Positions 1 through 10,158 of a stretch of 64,000 nt of DNA are shown here, one piece after another. Source of the DNA: Halovenus rubra (lineage in GTDB: Archaea > Halobacteriota > Halobacteria > Halobacteriales > Haloarculaceae); NCBI RefSeq assembly GCF_026586665.1, contig NZ_JAODIY010000009.1:248001-312000 (forward strand). The letters run 5' to 3'. Within the stretch, counting starts at the first letter, position 1. Every line of letters starts with the position of its first letter. Position numbers and translations under genes: made by a program. The notes beneath the pieces were generated by a model. That model was given only the letters and a program-made list of their open reading frames with translations, was not told the origin of the DNA and searched no databases.

Positions 1-706
1 GATTCCATAGAACAGCTAACGCCCCACCAAGGTACGTCGTGTTGAGAAACACGAGGGATCCAGCAATCACAGCTAATTCCGATCCCAGCAACTCTGGAAG
101 GGGCAAGACAATGTTCAGAGAGACATTGAAGGCACTGGTGATGAGACCAGCTGACATCGGTGAAAGAAGTGCGATGACATAGAATGGACCACGTGGCGAA
201 TGTAGTAATAACTTGAAACTTCGATATGGGAAGTGAAACAGTTCATAGGCACCGTACAGCAACAGAAGTGCTACAACTAGCCCAATTACCATCTCGATCA
301 GACCATTCGGTTCTGGGAAGGCATCATAAGCACCAGTTAGGAACATGATATTAACTGAAGACACAGCCCAGAACGCGTATGGGCCAAATGAGAGGTTGTC
401 TTCAGTTCCGTTAAGGAAGGCGTCTGTCTTCTCAGTAGAATATGGGCTGAGCCAGGTAAACGGCCATCCTAAAAGTGCAACTGCCAGTGGGATGGTAACT
501 GGGGGAAACACCATCAGGATCGGTCGAACGATACCGTAGATAAGGTTCCACACAAAGGAGAAGACTGAGAAAATAGCCCAGATAACACCGATAATTCCGA
601 CTATAACAGCGAATATAAGTACGAAGCCAGAGCCGCCACTACCTCCGCCACCACCGCGACCACCGGTCACCCATCGAAACGCTGCGTATTTGCCAAGAAA
701 TCCCAT
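1..706 (-). CDS. Membrane protein, partial (runs off left edge)
   Basis: The minus strand is open from an ATG at 706 to the window edge, giving 235 residues with no stop. After a short N-terminus (MGFLGKYAAFRW) comes a Gly/Ser-rich stretch, then several hydrophobic segments (around FVLIFAVIVGIIGVIW, ILMVFPPVTIPLAVALLGW, MVIGLVVALLLLYGAY, FYVIALLSPMSAGLI). It is an integral membrane protein with at least four or five helices. I do not recognise the family. An A/T-rich box at 719-730 lies just upstream. The 48-base gap to the hydrolase on the same strand would allow cotranscription from the hydrolase side. Confidence 0.75.
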   Translation of the reverse strand, partial: MGFLGKYAAFRWVTGGRGGGGGSGGSGFVLIFAVIVGIIGVIWAIFSVFSFVWNLIYGIVRPILMVFPPVTIPLAVALLGWPFTWLSPYSTEKTDAFLNGTEDNLSFGPYAFWAVSSVNIMFLTGAYDAFPEPNGLIEMVIGLVVALLLLYGAYELFHFPYRSFKLLLHSPRGPFYVIALLSPMSAGLITSAFNVSLNIVLPLPELLGSELAVIAGSLVFLNTTYLGGALAVLWN

Positions 707-754
707 GTGTCTATTGTGTTTTTAAATTAGTTTGAAAACACTACGTGAGCTGGA

Positions 755-2446
755 TTAGTCTTGTAACCGGTTTTTGAGTGAGTAGAGGCCTCCAGCAGCA
801 CTTGTCACAGCCACACCGACTCCAACGCCGGGTAACGTAATTCGTAGATCAGTGATGGTTTGTTGGTCAGCTTGTTTTCCCACAGTAAGTGTTGTCTCTG
901 TTGTAGCTGTCCGTCCGTTATTATCGACTACACTGAGATTGACGCTGTGTTGACCTGGTTCTTCAAACCGGTGTGTTACCGTTTTACCCGCCGAAGTTTC
1001 GCCATTTGGGAACTCCCACGTGTACGCGAGGATTTGTCCACGACTGACTTCTGTAGAACTCGCATCAAACTCAATTGGCTCTCCAACCTCAGGTTGCTCA
1101 GTCGTATATCCAATTGTTGGTTCAATGCCAAGATCTTGGTTGAAGCTACTCACGTCCTCTCCATTGAGACTCCGCTGATGAAACTCCACGATATCCTCTA
1201 CTGCTGGGCGAGGACTATGGGCAACCCCTTCGTATATTTTGAACTGTGCGTCAACACCGGCTTGCTCGTATGCAGACTGACAGTATGGGAATCGCTCCGC
1301 AACCATCTTTTCTCCATAGACCTCAAGAGCGATTTCCCGCATCTCTTCACTCCATGCATCATCGTACGGGATCGTATCGTTTGAATCCTCACCGCCCATA
1401 AAGAGGAACTGATTGACTTCACTGAGCGCATCTAAGTCAACCGGCTCTCCAGTAAGTTCCTCAACGTCTGCGATTCCGATATGGAAATTCAGCGTATGGC
1501 CCTTTACTTCCTCAAGCGGAAGCATCGCCATCCCGTTCAATCCGCCAGCAGTGACAGATCGAACACGATCTGGATGAAGAACAGCAAAGCGATCAACAAA
1601 GTTTCCTGCAGCAGAAAATCCGTTCAGTAGAATCTGATCGTCAACGGTGTAGGACTGATCGGATAGCATCTCCTGTGCGTGATCCACCATCCGTAAGAGT
1701 TGAAGATCAACTCGTTCGAGAGGGCCATCCGAAATTTGCATCGTCTGGCGATCTAACGCATGGACGTAGTGTCGCCAGTCCACCGGATCTGTTTGCGGTC
1801 GGGGGAACACAGGAATAAGTAACGGCACAGATAGCCGTTCACTGACCGTTCGTGAGATTCCGTTTTCAATCCGGTTTCGTGCAGACTGCTTATGAGTATC
1901 GAAGTTATCAGTTGTTTGACCGCTGTTATTGGGTTGAACGAGGATTGAACCGGGACTGCTATCGGTTGGTCGTGATGGTGCGTAGAGGAAGTATGGATAA
2001 TTGAAACCCGCAGCAGGGTCTGCTTCAACAAGCGTGGGGCCGATCCCAGAAGCGAACTCTCCCGGATCTCCAACAGTGATTCTCGCGGTATCACGCGCAA
2101 TATTTGAGCCGCTTGAGTCATAGAGATTCGCCGAAAGCGTTTCTGCTTCTGTGAGTTCCGTTGAGAGGTCTACTTCATATTCTTCAACGGCAGTTCCTGC
2201 GTCAAATGTAACCTGGCCGCCAATTCCATTCGAGTCTTGATCACGGATTATAAAACGTGCCTCGACCTCGGTTTCGATTTTCCCGACTGTGACTGAACTA
2301 CCGTCTGATATCTGGTCATTGAATGTTATGGAAGCCTCCGGGTCCTCTTGCCCAGCAGATGTGCCAGCGGTACCGAGCATTGCCATCCCTACGATTCCTG
2401 TGCCAGTACGACGTAGTAGTCCACGTCGGCTCCAAAACGTGTTCAT
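755..2446 (-). CDS. Tat-exported alpha/beta-hydrolase with C-terminal PKD domain and membrane anchor
   Basis: The 563-residue protein starts at the ATG that gives MNTFWSRRGLLRRTGTG, a twin-arginine signal, followed by an Ala/Gly-rich cleavage region. A short beta-rich N-terminal domain precedes an alpha/beta-hydrolase domain. The nucleophile motif is in LNGFSAAGNF (G-F-S-A-A-G), and a candidate catalytic His lies in GVAHSPRP. A PKD-like domain (FDASSTEVS...YTWEFPNGETS...HRFEEPGQHSVNLSVVDNNG) and a C-terminal hydrophobic anchor follow. It probably sits on the outer face of the cell membrane. An esterase or depolymerase role is possible but the substrate is unknown. The upstream in-frame extension to 2536 is not hydrophobic and would bury the Tat motif, so it was rejected. 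Confidence 0.8.
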   Translation of the reverse strand: MNTFWSRRGLLRRTGTGIVGMAMLGTAGTSAGQEDPEASITFNDQISDGSSVTVGKIETEVEARFIIRDQDSNGIGGQVTFDAGTAVEEYEVDLSTELTEAETLSANLYDSSGSNIARDTARITVGDPGEFASGIGPTLVEADPAAGFNYPYFLYAPSRPTDSSPGSILVQPNNSGQTTDNFDTHKQSARNRIENGISRTVSERLSVPLLIPVFPRPQTDPVDWRHYVHALDRQTMQISDGPLERVDLQLLRMVDHAQEMLSDQSYTVDDQILLNGFSAAGNFVDRFAVLHPDRVRSVTAGGLNGMAMLPLEEVKGHTLNFHIGIADVEELTGEPVDLDALSEVNQFLFMGGEDSNDTIPYDDAWSEEMREIALEVYGEKMVAERFPYCQSAYEQAGVDAQFKIYEGVAHSPRPAVEDIVEFHQRSLNGEDVSSFNQDLGIEPTIGYTTEQPEVGEPIEFDASSTEVSRGQILAYTWEFPNGETSAGKTVTHRFEEPGQHSVNLSVVDNNGRTATTETTLTVGKQADQQTITDLRITLPGVGVGVAVTSAAGGLYSLKNRLQD

Positions 2447-2597
2447 CTTAGCACTCACTCCCCTTCGAGCAGTAACGTAGGGTCCAAACTTCGTCCATTT
2501 CGTATGGCGATTGTGATATCTACAGTGTAAATGCATTCACTGGGAAAGTGACCATGTTCTGGATGTTCTCTCAGGTACTGGAAGAGAATAATCAGCC

Positions 2598-2607
2598 CTA
2601 AAAAGGC
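2598..2607 (+). promoter_or_regulatory. TATA-like box for the winged-helix gene
   Basis: CCTAAAAAGG lies 20-29 bases before the ATG at 2627, the usual position for a haloarchaeal leaderless promoter. Confidence 0.5.
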
Positions 2608-2626
2608 CAATTTGGTTTAGTACGGT

Positions 2627-3400
2627 ATGACAGGTACGGAGGGAGAACAGTTGCGTGATGTATTTTCGAAGAGATACTGGCTCGTTGAAGCACTTTCTGG
2701 GGAGCCCAAAACGAAACCCGAGCTAGTGGAGGAACTGGAGTATTCCAGATCAACGATCAACCGGGCAATGGATGAGCTTCTCGATGTCAGGTGTGTCGAA
2801 CCAACTCAACCAGCAGGACAGCAGTTCCAATTGACAGTGGCAGGACAGGCAGCTCTTCAATTTCACCGAGATTACCGGACGGACACTAAGCAGGTTCAAA
2901 GCAATACTGCATTGTTAAACACCCTGCCCTTAGATTCGCTCGATAAAGCGTTCCTCGCTGATGCAGACGTCTATTCATCAGTCCGTACGCCAGATATAGC
3001 TCATCAGCCTGGCACAGAATTACTGGAAGAGGCAAGCAGCATGATTGGAACTGCACCCGTTGTCCAACGCGAATATTTCGACTACCTTCTGGAACGTCTA
3101 CGAGATGATGACTTCGAATTGGAGCTAATTCTCGAAAGTGACCTTCTGGAAGCGATAGAGCAGAATTATGAAAACGAATTCGAATCCCTCATAGAATCAG
3201 ACACAATCCAGATATATGTTATCGATGAGCCGTTTCCCTATGCGCTCTGGCTGATTGAACACGGGACATGTGAATACGCAGGGATCACACTGTACGAAAA
3301 TGGGGGAGTGAACGGTACAATTGTCAACGACACGGCTTCTGCGATTACGTGGGCGAAGGCCCAGTACTCTGAGTACCGCGAATCAGCCTCGGAACTATAA
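2627..3400 (+). CDS. Winged-helix transcriptional regulator, FilR1-like
   Basis: The 257-residue protein begins with a winged helix-turn-helix (residues about 10-75; SRSTINRAMDELLDV is the recognition region). The C-terminal domain has the arrangement of the FilR1/DUF1724 middle domain found in many haloarchaeal regulators (ELLEEASSMIGTAPVV...EYFDYLLERL...LILESDLLEAI...IQIYVIDEPFPYALWLI). The same architecture forms the N-terminus of the large NTPase at 54159-57902. The target is unknown. It is divergent from the hydrolase at 755-2446, which is a possible target. Confidence 0.75.
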   Translation: MTGTEGEQLRDVFSKRYWLVEALSGEPKTKPELVEELEYSRSTINRAMDELLDVRCVEPTQPAGQQFQLTVAGQAALQFHRDYRTDTKQVQSNTALLNTLPLDSLDKAFLADADVYSSVRTPDIAHQPGTELLEEASSMIGTAPVVQREYFDYLLERLRDDDFELELILESDLLEAIEQNYENEFESLIESDTIQIYVIDEPFPYALWLIEHGTCEYAGITLYENGGVNGTIVNDTASAITWAKAQYSEYRESASEL

Positions 3401-3809
3401 CGGTCTATCTGACGGCAGCGGTACTCATTCTCAAATTCTCCGGAATCTTTCTATGACACCTTCTTCCTGCTTACCCTTCCAATCATGAAGGATATATTAT
3501 ACTCGGGGCTCGCGCGCTGAAACGCTGTTTTATGTTGGGTTATCGTTTGGGAAACGCGCACTGTAACGGGGGGTGTCCGGAACTTTTTCGCGGGCATGAG
3601 GGTGAGCCTGGTACTCTATCCTTGAGGTATCCATTGGGTGTCCCGTTTTTCTGATGTCGCGCCAGATGTCCAGACCGTGAATCGCGGGCACGCGCCGGCA
3701 ACCCCAGCGAGGTGAAGCTCCCGGTACAGACTGTTAGCGACACGAGAAGCCGAGTGGTTGAATACTGACGACGCACGCTTTCTTGTCACCGAGAGACGTA
3801 CGGTTCTAC
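3401..3809. other. Gene-poor stretch before the first small acidic gene
   Basis: No convincing gene seen. An A/T-rich TATA-like run (GATATATTATACTC) lies near 3491-3504. From about 3540 the sequence becomes more G+C-rich and marks the left side of the atypical block that runs to about 6230. Confidence 0.4.
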
Positions 3810-3998
3810 ATGGACGACGACAGGCGCGAACCGACCGACGAGGACCTCCGACGACGACACGCCGCCAGTCTCGCCCAGCTCAAACGGATGTTCGACCACG
3901 CAGAGGGTGAGTGTCACGCGGAGGGCGAGTGTCACGCTGACCCGATAGATGAGGAAGCCCTTGACGCCGAACTCGATGAACTGGAAGAGGAGCAGTAA
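3810..3998 (+). CDS. Small acidic protein with Cys-His motifs (copy 1)
   Basis: The 62-residue protein starts MDDDRREPTDEDLRRRHAAS. I do not recognise a family. It has a helical core (ASLAQLKRMF), a tandem duplication of AEGECH, and a very acidic tail (EEALDAELDELEEE). A paralogue with the same core, one EGECHAD unit and the same tail lies at 5032-5211, so selection for the protein is likely. Cys/His pairs could bind metal. I chose the ATG at 3810 over an upstream TTG because similarity to copy 2 begins after it. Confidence 0.6.
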   Translation: MDDDRREPTDEDLRRRHAASLAQLKRMFDHAEGECHAEGECHADPIDEEALDAELDELEEEQ

Positions 3999-4105
3999 CA
4001 CCCAGTAACGATACTATCGATCCTGTCAACGGCAGCGGACAGGAACAGTGTCACCCCAGTAACCTTGATCACCCACTGTTGCCTCTCACAGCGGTCAAGA
4101 AGTGT

Positions 4106-4283
4106 GATTGCTCACAGTGGCCGCGCAGTGTTACCGTACGGTGTTATCGCCCAGAGCCAACACGATAAGTGACCACGAACACAGGGAACCACTGTCCACA
4201 CGACCATACTACCCGGTAACGCAAAGCAGCAACCCTGTACCCCCAACCACTGCGGTCAGGATCTGTGTTCTCCCCAGCCACCC
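4106..4283 (+). repeat. Diverged repeat, unit A
   Basis: First of four related units. Shared order: CACAGTGGCCGCGCAGTGTTAC, then GGTGTTATCGCCC, then AACACGAT, GAACACAGG, ACGACCATAC, TAACGCA, AGCAGCCCTG and GCGGTCAGG. No reading frame is conserved between units, so the unit looks non-coding. Confidence 0.6.
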
Positions 4284-4313
4284 ACGGTGAGCAACCACGG
4301 TGACCGGAAAGTG

Positions 4314-4500
4314 TTATTGCCCACAGTGGCCGCGCAGTGTTACCGCGCAATGTTATCGCCCCGAGTTAACACGATGAATGAGCGCGAACACAGGACACTA
4401 ACAGAACGAATCACGGACTGCCAGCACGACCATACCGCCATTAACGCAGAGTAGCAGCCCTGCACCCCATGCCCGCGGTCAGGTTCAGTGTTACCCACTT
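4314..4500 (+). repeat. Diverged repeat, unit B
   Basis: Best match to unit A. It shares CCACAGTGGCCGCGCAGTG, TGTTATCGCCCCGAG, AACACGATGAATGA, GCGAACACAGG, GCACGACCATACC, TTAACGCAGAGTAGCAGCCC and CGCGGTCAGGTTCAGTGTT in the same order, with one longer spacer. Confidence 0.6.
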
Positions 4501-4679
4501 CTCAACAACCACCGAACCCCCACTTTCACTACGCCGACTCTCTGAAAACCGCCAGCAAGCGCCACCCGCAACATGAGTCATGTTCGACTCTCCCAGCCCA
4601 AACCGGTGATCGAACACCTGAACCCCAAGCTATACGGGGATTATCCTCGACTCTCAGAAAACACGGGCAGAAGTGGGCC

Positions 4680-4945
4680 GGCGGAAGGCAGGTCATCGTA
4701 TACCTCACAACCAGAGCCGAGAATCATGGTTTCACTACTTGTTTCGAGATTATCTGCGTACCCGATAACTGGTGTTTCCTCCTTCCGGGCATACCCCAAT
4801 TCGAAGTGGGTTCCAGAGTCGAGATGATCCAGTAATTCGAACACCAAGTCTGCGACCGTCAACGACGTCGTCAAGGACATCAGGGGGATCGAGCGCGAGC
4901 ACGAGGGCGACGACGGCGATGACGTGACACCGCGACCCGAGTAGT
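4680..4945 (-). pseudogene. Remnant of a nucleoside 2-deoxyribosyltransferase-like gene
   Basis: The minus strand reads LDSGTHFELGYARKEETPVIGYA, matching the conserved D-x-GT-x-FE-x-GYA...PVI-x-Y signature of the nucleoside 2-deoxyribosyltransferase family. In another frame just upstream it reads AVVALVLALDPPDV, the family's preceding strand and DPP motif. The two parts are out of frame and there is no full-length gene, so this is a decayed copy. It lies between the two repeat modules. Confidence 0.5.
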
Positions 4946-5031
4946 AAGCGACGCTCGGATCCGCCGCTGGCAGTAACATCCAGCACGGACCGGCACTGAC
5001 TCTTTTGCCATCAGACACCGTGGAACTCACC

Positions 5032-5211
5032 ATGGACGGTGATGAGGACGAGGAGACCCGGCGCGCCGCCGCCAGTCTCGAACAATTGAAACGAATGTTC
5101 CGACGATCGGGCGCGGAGGGTGAGTGTCACGCGGACCGGGTAGATGACGAAGCTCTCGATGCCGAACTTGATGACTTGGAAGAGGAATTGCGCGAAGAGC
5201 GTGGACGGTAG
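5032..5211 (+). CDS. Small acidic protein with Cys-His motif (copy 2)
   Basis: The 59-residue protein is a paralogue of 3810-3998. It begins MDGDEDEETRRAAASLEQLK, then has a shared RMF, one EGECHAD unit and the acidic tail EALDAELDDLEEEL. It lacks the AEGECH duplication of copy 1. Its G+C content looks higher than the surrounding core genes. The family is unknown. As with copy 1, two repeat units follow downstream (5470-5740), so gene and repeats appear to have been duplicated together. Confidence 0.6.
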   Translation: MDGDEDEETRRAAASLEQLKRMFRRSGAEGECHADRVDDEALDAELDDLEEELREERGR

Positions 5212-5469
5212 CCGGTATCTTGTCAACTGTGTTCCGGCGGGGTGGTTTTGCGATTCTATCAGAGAGTCCCGCCGCTAAGGCTGTTACCGGTGGTAGCCGG
5301 CGCACACTGGGTGTGTTTCACGAGGCCGAGCCATCTGCTTGATCTTGCTTCCCGCGCCCGGGCTGGGTACCCGGGCACGTAGGATCGATACCACACGAAT
5401 CGTCACCGACGATCTTGGTCAGCCGTCAGTGTTCTCCCCAGTCACCCACCCATTGCGATCACCCACAGT

Positions 5470-5590
5470 GACCAAGAAATGTTACCGCCCACAGTGACCG
5501 CACAATGTTATCGCGCAAGGTTATCATCCCCAACGGTCACGATGAACGACCATAACGCCCACTAACTCAAAGTAGAAGCCCTGTACCATA
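5470..5590 (+). repeat. Diverged repeat, unit C
   Basis: Carries GTTACCGCCCACAGTGACCG, AATGTTATCGCGC, GTCACGATGAACGACCATAA, CTAACTCAAAGTAGAAGCCC and TGTACC in the order of units A and B, but shortened. It is preceded by CAGTGTTCTCCCCAGTCACC, which matches the end of unit A. Confidence 0.55.
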
Positions 5591-5625
5591 ACTTCGATCA
5601 CGCACTGTTACCACACACAGTGAGC

Positions 5626-5740
5626 GCTCATGGTGGCCGGGTAGTGTTATCGTGCGGTGGGGTCGAATGATGTTATCGCCCCGTGCCGAGACGAAGAGTG
5701 AGCACGGGTAGACTATCAACGATCGCAATCAGGATCAGCG
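5626..5740 (+). repeat. Diverged repeat, unit D
   Basis: Most decayed unit: GCTCATGGTGGCCGGGTAGTG, TTATCGTGCGGTG, TGTTATCGCCCCGTGCCGAG, ACGAAGAGTGAGCACGGG. The order and spacing match units A and B. Confidence 0.5.
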
Positions 5741-5800
5741 CCCTCCCTCTCCTCTCGTACTGTCACCGATTAGCGACGGGAGAGGGATTGTCAATACAGA

Positions 5801-5846
5801 CAGCGGGACCGGATTGGAACCGGGGGACTCCTACGGGACAGCGGAC
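5801..5846 (-). repeat. Inverted fragment of a tRNA-Leu 3' half
   Basis: On the minus strand this reads GCTGTCCCGTAGGAGTC, then CCGGTTCCAATCCGGTCCCGC. That is the variable arm, T arm and part of the acceptor of the tRNA-Leu-like gene at 6005-6102, with a few changes. It lacks the anticodon arm and D arm. It is in inverted orientation, about 250 bases from the larger copy. Confidence 0.6.
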
Positions 5847-6004
5847 GGCGAACGGTTGTATCGCAGAACGCTGTGCCGCGCGTTACTTTTATACTTCGCG
5901 GGGGAGACGGTGGCGATACAAGCAAGACCGCGAGACGCCAGGGGTCCGCCAGACGCCCGCGAGAGCCCGCGCACACCGCGAACGCGCATCCCATGTGATT
6001 TCAG

Positions 6005-6102
6005 GCGCGCGCCGCCGTGACCGCCAAAGCGGGCACTTATAAGGCGCAGCGCTTAGGACGCTGTCCCGTAGGGGTCCGCCGGTTCGAATCCGGTCCCGCG
6101 CA
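6005..6102 (+). tRNA. tRNA-Leu (UAG), 5' part abnormal; probably a partial or pseudo tRNA
   Basis: The 3' two-thirds is a good class II tRNA. The anticodon stem is CAGCG/CGCTG with loop CTTAGGA (anticodon TAG), followed by a long variable arm, T stem GCCGG/CCGGT with loop TTCGAAT, acceptor 3' strand CCCGCGC and discriminator A at 6102. The 5' part is poor. GCGCGCG at 6005 can pair six of seven acceptor positions, but it leaves a D arm about 13 bases too long. A shorter D arm (GCC at 6023, GGC at 6043) has no matching acceptor strand. CTTATAAG inside this part looks like a TATA box. It is most likely a tRNA 3' end left by integration, with the functional gene elsewhere. Confidence 0.5.
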
Positions 6103-6197
6103 CTGAACAAAAACTGCGAGCGTAGCGAGCAGTCTGCAGTGAGGAGACAGGACCAATTCAAACCCTAGAAGACACACGCAACGAAGTGAGCACGTCT

Positions 6198-6225
6198 GTA
6201 TCCGGTTCAAATCCGGTCTCGCACG
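6198..6225 (+). repeat. Third tRNA T-arm/acceptor-like fragment
   Basis: TCCGGTTCAAATCCGGTCTC followed by GCAC is in direct orientation to the 3' end of the tRNA-Leu-like gene, 122 bases downstream. It holds a complete T stem-loop but no other tRNA arm. It may be an attachment-site duplicate. Confidence 0.5.
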
Positions 6226-6661
6226 TGTGAATTAGATTTTTCAGACGCCTTTTGACCTGTTTCAGCCTAGCTAATAAGCAGTATAAGCTAAATCCCCACT
6301 AGCACCCTCGTCCAGAGAAAAAGTGTCCGGAAATCGAGTCCGACCGTAACATAGTGGCAATATCAAAGTCGAATGAAGCTGGCTGAACGGCAACAACTTC
6401 TCACCGACAGACAGCACAGAGTGCTATTCCAGACATGGATGTAGCTTTGTTATCGGTCGGTTGGTGACCAATTCGGAGTCTGGACTACTGGCTCGACGAG
6501 GTCGATGAAGAGACTCTTATTGGGGTGTTGTTCAGCTACCGGCTGGTTGTTACCGTCAAAATCTCTTGTACCCACGAAACGTCATTTTCGTCGAAAAGCA
6601 AGAAACGAACTGAAACAGTTCAACACGACGTGTCGTCTCTAATGAACTGTGTAGGACAACT
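6226..6661. other. Spacer between tRNA fragments and halorhodopsin
   Basis: I see no gene on either strand. The sequence is of ordinary composition and contains the 3' flank of the halorhodopsin gene. Confidence 0.4.
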
Positions 6662-7465
6662 TCACTCCGCAACTGTTCCGGATTCGACGACTTGCTGATT
6701 ATTGGCAACCCAGCGCAACAACAGGAATGCGAAGACGTACTTCGCAAAGATATCGAGGCCCGAGTAGAGCCACGAGGTGGTGCCAACCGATTCAATCAGT
6801 GCTAGACCCTCCACGCCAACAGCCCAGACAATTGGATATCCAAGCCATAACACAACCGTCAGCAGGCGGAGCGTATCGAATATCTCAGAAGTCCCGGCGG
6901 CCTGTGCATCCTGTGGCCACGTGACTAACAGGGCATACAGGACCGCAATGAAAAAGGCACAACTCACCAGATAGAACGCCCAGCGCAACTCTATGGACGC
7001 TGTGGTCTGGGCTGCAGCCAGTCCGGTAAGGCACATACCGATGTCGGCACCGATTACCGCGACCATGTCGGCTTTGTCTACACGGGCGAGCCAACCGAGA
7101 GCACCGAGAATAAGTGGTGTCGACAGCGACCACGTCAGATAACGGCCCCACTGGCTGATGACTTCATCCAGTGGATGTCCCGCCGGCATTTCGAGTGTCC
7201 CGATGGTAAGACCGGACAACAGTCCGAGGTAACTTGAAATCGAGACAAGAGGGATAAATAGTGCCACTACCCAAATCAGTCTGGAACGCTCCCCACGGAC
7301 CGACAGTCCCATATACGTGAACAGCAGGGCTGCTACCCCTGCGAGTGCAACATTTACCCAGAGTGACGAAGCAAGCAGTGAGTCGCCTTCGACAACCTCA
7401 GCAACCTGCAGTGGGTACGCTATACTGAACTCCGTCAGTACCGCCTCGATGTATCCTAACATCAT
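6662..7465 (-). CDS. hop: Halorhodopsin, light-driven chloride pump
   Basis: This 267-residue seven-helix retinal protein imports chloride in light. Helix C reads WGRYLTWSLSTPLILGAL, giving Arg108, Thr111, Ser115 and Ala122: the T-S-A pattern of halorhodopsins, where proton pumps have Asp-Thr-Asp. Asp238 and the Schiff-base Lys242 are in GLDIFAKYVFAF. The numbering coincides with Halobacterium halorhodopsin. The conserved B-C loop (LTIGTLEMPAGHP) and helix F region (WLGYPIVWAVGVEG) are present. Starts at ATG 7465 or 7462 are both possible; an upstream GTG is less likely. It is divergent from the transducer at 7729. Sensory rhodopsins lack this helix C pattern, so it is not the light receptor of that transducer. 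Confidence 0.95.
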   Translation of the reverse strand: MMLGYIEAVLTEFSIAYPLQVAEVVEGDSLLASSLWVNVALAGVAALLFTYMGLSVRGERSRLIWVVALFIPLVSISSYLGLLSGLTIGTLEMPAGHPLDEVISQWGRYLTWSLSTPLILGALGWLARVDKADMVAVIGADIGMCLTGLAAAQTTASIELRWAFYLVSCAFFIAVLYALLVTWPQDAQAAGTSEIFDTLRLLTVVLWLGYPIVWAVGVEGLALIESVGTTSWLYSGLDIFAKYVFAFLLLRWVANNQQVVESGTVAE

Positions 7466-7728
7466 GACCACATATTAGATAGGGTTACTATGTGTTAATA
7501 TTAATCCATGATATGTAAAAATATAACTATAAGTATGTTGGCAGTAATGCGAACAGTACAACTGGGATCTAACTAACGTTGTCTGACTGTCTATCTCTCT
7601 TAATCAGGCTGTGTTCGCCCACTGAGTCCAGTCCAGTTGTTATCAACGATATCGTGGTATGTTATATCAAATTCACTCCTGATAATTGGTCGGATAACTA
7701 TATACTCTTGGGGGAGTCCCTCAATAAC
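7466..7728. promoter_or_regulatory. Divergent promoter region of halorhodopsin and transducer
   Basis: The 263 bases are A/T-rich around 7472-7545. TTAATATTAATC at 7495-7506 suits a minus-strand promoter for the pump, and TAAAAATATAACTATAAG at 7516-7533 suits a plus-strand promoter. The run GGGGGAG at 7710-7716 precedes the transducer ATG and could be its ribosome-binding site. Confidence 0.45.
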
Positions 7729-10158
7729 ATGGGCATAGGAGCGTACATACCGAGAGTGCTGCGAAAAAGCCTTACCCGTAAGGCAGCAGTGGTGATTTTG
7801 GTTATCACACTCGTCCTCGGGGGGATCGGGTTGTTCACAGTCCTGGACGTTTCTTCTGAGGTGACTGAACAACGCGACACAGAGTTACTCACGAGTACTG
7901 AACAGGAGGCAGAAGCGTTAGAGGAGTGGATTGGCCGACAGCGTTCTGCTACAACGTACCTCTCACAGGATAACAAGATACAGACTGCAGAGCAATCAGA
8001 AAGAACACAGGTGTTGCAAAATCGCATTTCTAGATTAACGTCGACAGCTGTGGCAATACACTACGTCGACATGTCCACAGAGCAGGTGTTATCTTCGACC
8101 GACGATAGTGTCGAGGGGACGTCATACAGCTCGCTCTCGATACCGTGGCGTGGGAATGGACTGAACTTCTATGGCGGTGGCGATGCTATCATGTCGAGCG
8201 CCTTCGAGTATCAGGGGCAATCGGTTCTGGCGTTCGCCAGCAAGCAACCCGAGTCACAAAAAGCCGTTTTGGTGTTTCATAGCGTCGAAACACGTGGGGA
8301 AGGGTTTAGCAGGAACATCGACGGTAGTTACACGCAAGTCGTTGATATCAACGGCCAGGTGCAGTTTGCAGCGGATGAGTCTTCGATTAATGCCGAATAC
8401 GGTGCTGGAAGCGATGCCCCCGTGATTGCAAAGGGACTGACAACGGCGACTGGTCTCGAGTCCCGAAACGACCTCCTTATCGGACACTCGAAGATAGCGG
8501 GTTCCGACTTGGTGCTTCTCAAACACGCACCGAAGTCGAACGTATACGCTCTCCGTCAGACCGTCCAGACTGATATTATTATCCTAGTAGTGGCCGCCCT
8601 CGCCGGTCTTGGGGCGCTCGTGCTTATTATTGGCCGTGATGCGTTGACATCACTAAGTGCTCTCTCGGACCGCGCAGAGGAGATCGCAACTGGCGATATT
8701 GACACAGAGATCGAAGATGAAGGGCGACTCGACGAAGTCGGACAGCTGCGAAACTCGTTCCGACAGACACAGGCATATCTCCAAACGGTTGCCGGACAAG
8801 CGGACGCACTTGCACAACAACAGTTCGATGCTGATGTCCTCGACGAGGATGTGCCAGGACGGCTTGGAGAATCACTCAATCAAATGCAATCGGACCTTGA
8901 AACCTCGATTGCGGAACTTGAAGAGGCACAGCAGACCGCCGAAGCATCTCGACAGGAAGCCGAAGAGCTTGCGGCGGCACTGGAGTCACAGGCAGAAAAC
9001 GTGCGAGATGCAGTCGAGCATGCCGCCGATGGAGACTTGACGCGTCGGCTCGATACAGACACCAGCCACGATTCGATGGAGGCGATTGCGACGGCGTTCA
9101 ACAGCCTTCTCGATGAACTTGAACGAACAATCCATCGGATTCAGGAGTTCTCGGAGGATGTCGCCGACTCGAGCGAACATATCAACACTAGCGCAAAGGA
9201 AGTGAAACGAGCGAGTACCGAGGTGAGCGAGACGGTCCAAGAGATGTCTGCTGATGCCCAACAACAGGACGAAATCGTTCAAGAAGTCTCAAATGAGATG
9301 ACTGACCTCTCGGCAACAATCGAAGAGATTGCGTCTTCGTCCGACGAAGTTGCCCAACAATCCGGTAGCGCAGTGAGGGTCGGCGATGACGGACGAAAAC
9401 AATCGGTGAAAGCCATCGAAGAGATGGAAGCAGTCGACGAAAAGGCAAACAAAACGATTGCCGAGATGGAAGAATTAGACGATGAGATGGCTCAGATCGG
9501 TGAGATTGTGACACTTATCGATGATATCGCTGAGCAAACAAACATGCTCGCACTTAACGCCTCGATTGAAGCAGCCAGGGCAGGGGAAGCCGGCGAAGGG
9601 TTCGCTGTTGTCGCAGACGAAATCAAGTCACTGTCGAGAGAGACGACAGAAGCAACAAAAGAAATCGAGACGCTCATTGCCGATGTTCAGGAGTCTACAA
9701 GCGATGCTGTCGTCGACATGCGAGATATGGGAGAGCGACTTACTGAAGGGATGACGACGGTCGAAGATACCGTTGAAACACTCGAAACAATTGTCGAGCG
9801 AGTCGAGGAAGCAAATGACGGAGTCCAGACGATAAACGATGCGACTGACGAGCAGGCAGCCACGACTGAAGAGGTGGTTACGATGGTCGACAAAGTTGGA
9901 GCCATCAGTGATGACACAGCGGACCGGGCAGAAGACGCCGCTGCTGCTGCAGAAGAACAGACTGCTTCGATAACTGAGGTCACCGAACACATGCAGGACC
10001 TCTCGACGCAATCGGCTGACCTGTATGACCTCCTGACACAGTTCGAGGTGAGAGAGAAAAAAGCGGCCGCAGACGGAGGCCAACCTCCCGAAACAACGGC
10101 AGACATCAATCCATCACAGGACGCAGATAGCACGAACTCCCACAATACAGAACCATGA
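7729..10158 (+). CDS. Halobacterial transducer (methyl-accepting chemotaxis protein)
   Basis: The 809-residue membrane receptor has a first transmembrane segment at about residues 19-40 ([18 protein letters not shown]), an extracellular sensor of about 240 residues, a second membrane segment near 280-302 ([20 protein letters not shown]), HAMP regions and a long cytoplasmic methyl-accepting coiled coil. The signalling hairpin ([20 protein letters not shown]) is near residue 600. Start: [20 protein letters not shown] puts the first membrane helix at the N-terminus, so the 50-residue upstream extension was dropped. Its stop overlaps the start of the binding protein by ATGA. By analogy with BasT/BasB and CosT/CosB of Halobacterium, it probably reads ligand through that protein and signals to CheA. 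Confidence 0.9.

Follow-up and report, generated by a model that had tools for sequence, protein, structure and literature searches.

The tyrT locus of Escherichia coli, with its rtT RNA, contains direct repeats at a single tRNA locus, each of which carries the 3' end of tRNA-Tyr, and the attC sites of integrons, which form an array behind a fixed site, are imperfect palindromes that contain an unpaired base and a variable part. The haloarchaeal tail units described below resemble the tyrT repeats in lying behind a tRNA gene and in each carrying a copy of the tRNA 3' end, but they combine inverted and direct copies with hairpins and follow many tRNAs across a class. With attC they share the imperfect palindrome, the unpaired base, the variable part and the arrangement in an array behind a fixed site; unlike in integrons, no gene cassettes were seen in the units of 83–170 bp, and their site derives from the tRNA end.

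Among integrated elements, genomic island 3 of Haloquadratum walsbyi HBSQ001 is described as having an integrase immediately behind an intact tRNA, a displaced 43-nt 3'-end repeat on the far side and cargo of the restriction type (PMC3119063). The locus analyzed here has the integrase behind the tRNA, the displaced 3' repeat and the restriction-type cargo in common with it, and differs in the tRNA used, tRNA-Leu(UAG), in its length of 34 kb, and in the tail unit and second, decayed integrase that lie beyond the far fragment. Integrated elements of Thermococcaceae are reported to combine a complete tRNA copy with a partial one, which can resemble a tRNA gene (PMC9897764), and both features recur here. 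In the available portion of that report the elements have direct copies only, with no hairpin units bearing an inverted T arm, whereas the haloarchaeal units have both. As no title found among the accessible part of the open-access literature describes such tRNA-tail repeats, a hairpin repeat carrying the tRNA's own tail behind haloarchaeal tRNA genes is apparently undescribed.

A 34.2-kb element in the tRNA-Leu(UAG) gene

The window, that is, the whole stretch of 64,000 nucleotides analyzed here, corresponds to positions 248001-312000 of contig C48 in the Halovenus rubra genome (3.57 Mb, 48 contigs). An earlier note on this DNA had recognized three 3' pieces of tRNA-Leu, one of them inverted, and all three exist with slightly shifted boundaries (Table 1; the third matches over 6202-6222). 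It had also attributed the pieces to integration of an archaeal element at the 3' half of the tRNA, and for tRNA-Leu(UAG) and the fragment at 6041-6103 this proved correct. The search that it recommended for an intact tRNA-Leu(UAG) elsewhere located the sole intact copy of the genome at C48:219757-219842, outside the window and 34 kb to the left of attR. An integrase ORF of 347 aa (C48:219863-220906; PF00589, E 9.3e-14) starts 20 bp behind this tRNA. Its product matches the HSTV-2 integrase with 43.1% identity over 96%, and this pairwise match exceeds the limit of 30% identity across 60% of the protein by which the HSTV2 integrase family is delimited (PMC8371274). The empty site, which the note had suggested seeking in a relative, was found in G003, a Halovenus relative: there the intact tRNA, a tail unit and the rhodopsin flank follow one another without an island, colinear with window 6041-6222 and 6678-7484. 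Three marks by which tRNA-integrated archaeal elements are recognized are thus seen together, namely the integrase beside the intact tRNA, the direct repeat at the far end and the empty site in a relative. It is clear that a tyrosine-recombinase element occupies the genome's one intact tRNA-Leu(UAG) gene, that attR, at 6041-6103, is the 3' part which the gene originally had and which has been displaced, and that the gene now working owes its 3' part to the element.

Table 1. Features at the right end of the element and behind it (window positions unless a contig is named)
Feature	Position	Strand	Evidence and details
Integrative element	C48:219843-254040 (34.2 kb); right end, window 1-6040	+	Intact tRNA, 63-bp repeat and integrase
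Inverted tRNA-Leu 3' piece, inside the right end of the element	5803-5843	-	92.7% over 41 nt to the intact tRNA, E 5e-12
attR, original 3' part of tRNA-Leu(UAG), now displaced; extends from the anticodon arm to the 3' end	6041-6103	+	Direct repeat of the intact tRNA, 96.8% over 63 nt, E 1.3e-25; colinear with the intact tRNA of G003
Decayed tail unit	6103-6224	+	h1 hairpin (about 6113-6134), inverted T arm (about 6150-6165), h2, T-arm copy; window 6041-6222 85.2% to tRNA and unit of G003
T arm and 3' strand of the tRNA, copied in direct orientation (third piece)	6202-6224	+	95.2% over 21 nt
Decayed leader and first codons of a G007-type integrase gene, abutting the T-arm copy	6226-6442	+	69.5% DNA identity over 6202-6442

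Most of the element, including the integrase and the primase, lies to the left of the window. Its cargo comprises a 1247-aa primase (PriCT_2), an Eco57I-type methylase with DrmMI and type IIG matches, an SNF2-type helicase with BrxH and DrmD matches in the first 462 aa, which were scanned, a GmrSD protein (HEC-05) and an MrfA/HRQ1-type helicase. The methylase, the two helicases and the GmrSD protein form a defence-type gene cluster at C48:231376-247746, left of the window. A PHROGs scan of nine element proteins detected no virus structural family, the one terminase-like match being weak (E 0.005) and to a helix-turn-helix protein. The small genes and repeats at 3540-5740, which the earlier note had suggested might be remains of the element, do lie inside it; the element, however, is a 34-kb island situated mostly left of the window and no remnant. 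An element confined to 3540-5740 was rejected, given the intact tRNA and integrase far to the left. Two short acidic ORFs inside the island, at 3783-3998 and 5005-5211, appear by eye to be copies of each other (ASLxQLKRMF ... GECHAD ... LDAELD).

The segment 6005-6102 had been described as a tRNA-like gene, and its 3' 63 nt are indeed nearly intact, as would be expected if it were a functional second tRNA-Leu gene. We reject this as exceedingly improbable: ARAGORN makes no tRNA call within the window, the Rfam scan of the window at gathering score finds no tRNA at 6005-6102, the 43 tRNA-family matches of the whole genome include the intact tRNA-Leu(UAG) and not this segment, and it folds no better than its shuffles (z -0.92). 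The intact gene elsewhere in the genome likewise speaks against a second functional copy.

The inverted piece had been taken for a fragment left by integration. It is internal to the right end of the element, and by eye a correspondingly placed inverted tRNA-Leu 3' piece precedes the tRNA fragment of the related G042 element, the integrase of which shows 79% identity over 312 aa; locus L254 also matches window 5803-5985 at 72%. This piece would therefore appear to be an end structure of this element family. Both here and in the G042 element (L344), the interval from the inverted piece to attR contains a TATA-like stretch (window 5886-5897) together with the conserved words ATCGCAGAACGCTGTGCCG. 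A small RNA gene ending in a tRNA-like 3' half could possibly lie in this interval. A fourth, degenerate direct piece near 5940-5975 was dropped, the match spanning only 11 nt (E 0.3).

The decayed tail unit and second integrase behind attR

The third piece had been interpreted as a scar of the same element, and this was rejected because island-free relatives carry that repeat directly behind the intact tRNA. By itself its match to the intact tRNA (6202-6222, E 7e-4) would carry little weight, but an end-to-end alignment of window 6041-6222 with the tRNA and first repeat of G003 extends over 182 nt, and hence the piece is no chance match. What lies behind attR is an older, decayed tail unit of the kind that directly follows tRNA-Leu(UAG) in most of the haloarchaeal genomes examined, and other tRNAs in some. 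The segment 6104-6225 folds no better than its shuffles (z -0.38). Directly against the T-arm copy begins another integrase gene, of a different kind and decayed: translated, 6226-6442 matches the G007-type integrase at 52% over 23 and 53% over 17 residues, in differing frames of register. To the right of the tail unit there is a rhodopsin gene (6662-7471, PF01036), which adjoins a long ORF on the opposite strand (7579-10158) that by eye is signal-transducer-like.

An older integrase behind a T-arm copy, as at 6226-6442, is what serial integration would leave, and tail units in general could on this basis be explained as passive scars of repeated integration and decay at tRNA 3' ends. Such ends are targeted by integrases and fragments of this kind are known (PMC9897764, PMC3119063). 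We nevertheless regard this explanation as decidedly improbable, given the distribution and uniformity of the units set out below.

Tail units across haloarchaeal tRNA genes

The anatomy of the unit in relatives is firmly established: an h1 hairpin, an inverted T arm, an h2 hairpin and a direct copy of the T arm with the 3' strand follow one another within 83–170 bp, the copy included. Loci were drawn from a search with matches in 136 of 145 genomes, 30 loci from these and 60 further stretches being taken; removal of 4 of 110 loci (two fragments and two with less than 300 nt downstream) left 106 intact loci from 106 genomes. A T-arm copy, defined by at most 5 mismatches of 23 within 300 nt, was detected behind tRNA-Leu(UAG) in 75 of these 106 genomes and in none of 2120 shuffled stretches, and 10 of the 11 sampled haloarchaeal families have at least one copy. 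A single architecture with pairing arms in so many families argues against passive scars. The exact two-copy pattern occurs in 77 stretches of the genome collection, all in haloarchaeal records, and the variable T-loop base is the same in the tRNA and the first copy in 70 of 76 cases.

Where the copy is absent (31 of 106 genomes), searches with four query integrases placed an integrase directly behind the tRNA in 7. Six of these seven (G000, G007, G020, G042, G163 and G165) have an array behind a tRNA fragment elsewhere; the seventh, G176, has none. In G020 the fragment and its array are distant from the tRNA and on the opposite strand, which requires a rearrangement. An adjacent unit is missing here and in about 30% of genomes, yet the tRNA functions in them; it can therefore do without the unit. 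In G161 (L341), two identical tandem tail units stand behind the displaced tRNA-Leu fragment of an 11-kb island.

Other tRNA genes are also followed by such units. A palindrome pattern was matched in 34 of 116 Halobacteriales genomes (46 matches, with 7 palindromes matched on both strands), and the reversed-pattern control gave none; across the wider phylum it was matched in 16 of 40 Halobacteriales versus 1 of 156 others (G298). A tRNA was present in 31 of the 32 stretches fetched, namely that for Leu, Pro, Cys, Phe, Met, Lys, Gly or Asp. In G109 (L293), the unit is behind a tRNA-Cys that itself lies behind the 5S rRNA of an rRNA operon. One further rule, the recurrence of a tRNA's own last 24 nt within 300 nt, was applied to four genomes, with 29 of 42 tRNA matches tested in G139, 31 of 47 in G117, 33 of 43 in the window genome and 30 of 51 in G280, a non-haloarchaeon of the phylum. 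Own-end copies were detected behind 20 of 29, 8 of 31, 0 of 33 and 0 of 30 genes, respectively, and the ends of other tRNAs recurred in 14 of 783, 11 of 899, 0 of 1023 and 0 of 630 comparisons. In 18 of the 20 cases in G139 and 5 of the 8 in G117, the own-end copy has an inverted arm in front of it. That 20 of 29 tRNA genes of one genome carry copies of their own ends is a further point against passive scars, as is the extent of the copies: fragments at most islands seen here reach from the anticodon arm, and unit copies from the T arm only.

Related loci differ by exactly one unit at the tRNA end, with a length of 106 bp (L142/L026), 120–121 bp (L135/L133), 128 bp (L183/L179) and 113 bp (L183/L184) in pairs whose flanks are 94%, 87%, 80% and 84% identical, respectively. 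One h1 module and one h2 module each recur in three families, in differing combinations. Integrase genes abut the T copy in six places (G022, G104, G056, L211, L242 and the window, at 6226-6442), where either the integrase used the copy or the unit was inserted later between the tRNA and the element, and the far fragment of the G176 element begins only at the T arm. All four observations would suit an explanation of the units as miniature, gene-less cassettes of about 80–170 bp, bounded by tRNA 3'-end repeats and moved by tyrosine recombinases acting on the T arm; by analogy with integron attC, the inverted and direct arms might act together as a folded attachment site. However, loss through recombination between the 23-bp repeats explains presence and absence equally well, no circle was seen, and the copies carry each tRNA's own 3' strand, which speaks against a simple hop between tRNA species. 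We therefore consider such cassettes rather unlikely.

Pairing, strand preference and possible roles of the units

The inner arms vary among units and yet pair. In 92 of 103 units (11 without a recognizable inverted arm were excluded), the mean duplex energy was -9.59 within units as against -7.30 (sd 0.25) for permuted arms, the lowest permuted value being -8.11 (0/2000). Covariation was measured on 31 of 58 sequences chosen by eye for variety. With relatedness ignored, these 31 units gave 62 double-change cells against 20.9 (sd 4.0) in shuffles (0/500), and a covariation score of 0.300 against 0.140 (0/500), which dropped to 0.07–0.09 when slid. Two of the five measures fell within the shuffle range for the same units: 9 pairs with double change compare with 7.5 (68/500), and 24 further pair types with 21.7 (79/500), neither of which is unusual.

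The h1 hairpin is more stable in the sense strand in 84 of 92 units, and the inverted-arm hairpin favors sense in 65 and antisense in 26. Over 11 arm positions there are 55 G.T and 18 A.C mismatches, with 6 and 7, respectively, at the variable T-loop base. A tandem-GA hairpin pattern, picked after viewing the sense strand, was counted 63 times in sense as against 0 in antisense. G-U pairs over whole folds number 95 in sense versus 117 in antisense and are thus not commoner in sense. On balance, though not strongly, the strand evidence indicates that a single strand is involved, and RNA more simply than DNA; strand-biased hairpins would be unexpected for the double-stranded site of a mobile cassette. 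Intact tail units matched no family of Rfam 15 (12 stretches at gathering score, 4 of them also at E 0.5), the listed matches being only tRNA and rRNA.

A structured trailer RNA is the role that we favor, with a mobile mini-cassette second and passive scars third. The tRNA and an intact tail unit would be transcribed together, yielding a structured trailer; there, pairing with the downstream copy would hold the inverted arm off the real T arm, the copy serving as a decoy for the antisense T arm. From sequence comparison, we judge that intact units act in this way with close to, though short of, an even chance. Integrases may also land on the copy, as suggested by the several integrase genes that adjoin it and not the tRNA. 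Somewhat more doubtful is the broader proposal of an undescribed class of tRNA-tail units, in step with their own tRNA, that are either trailer RNAs with an antisense T arm and a decoy doubling as a landing site or gene-less tRNA cassettes; the two covariation measures and the G-U count slightly lower its odds. Taken jointly, the account of an island in tRNA-Leu(UAG), its attR, an older decayed unit, a second integrase and putative trailer and landing-site roles is in our view highly probable.

The island and its scar, taken alone, are ordinary, whereas the tail units are unusual. They would represent either a trailer RNA of a new type, with a part in the maturation or quality control of tRNA, or a new minimal mobile cassette. 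They also caution against reading every haloarchaeal tRNA 3' fragment as the end of an island.
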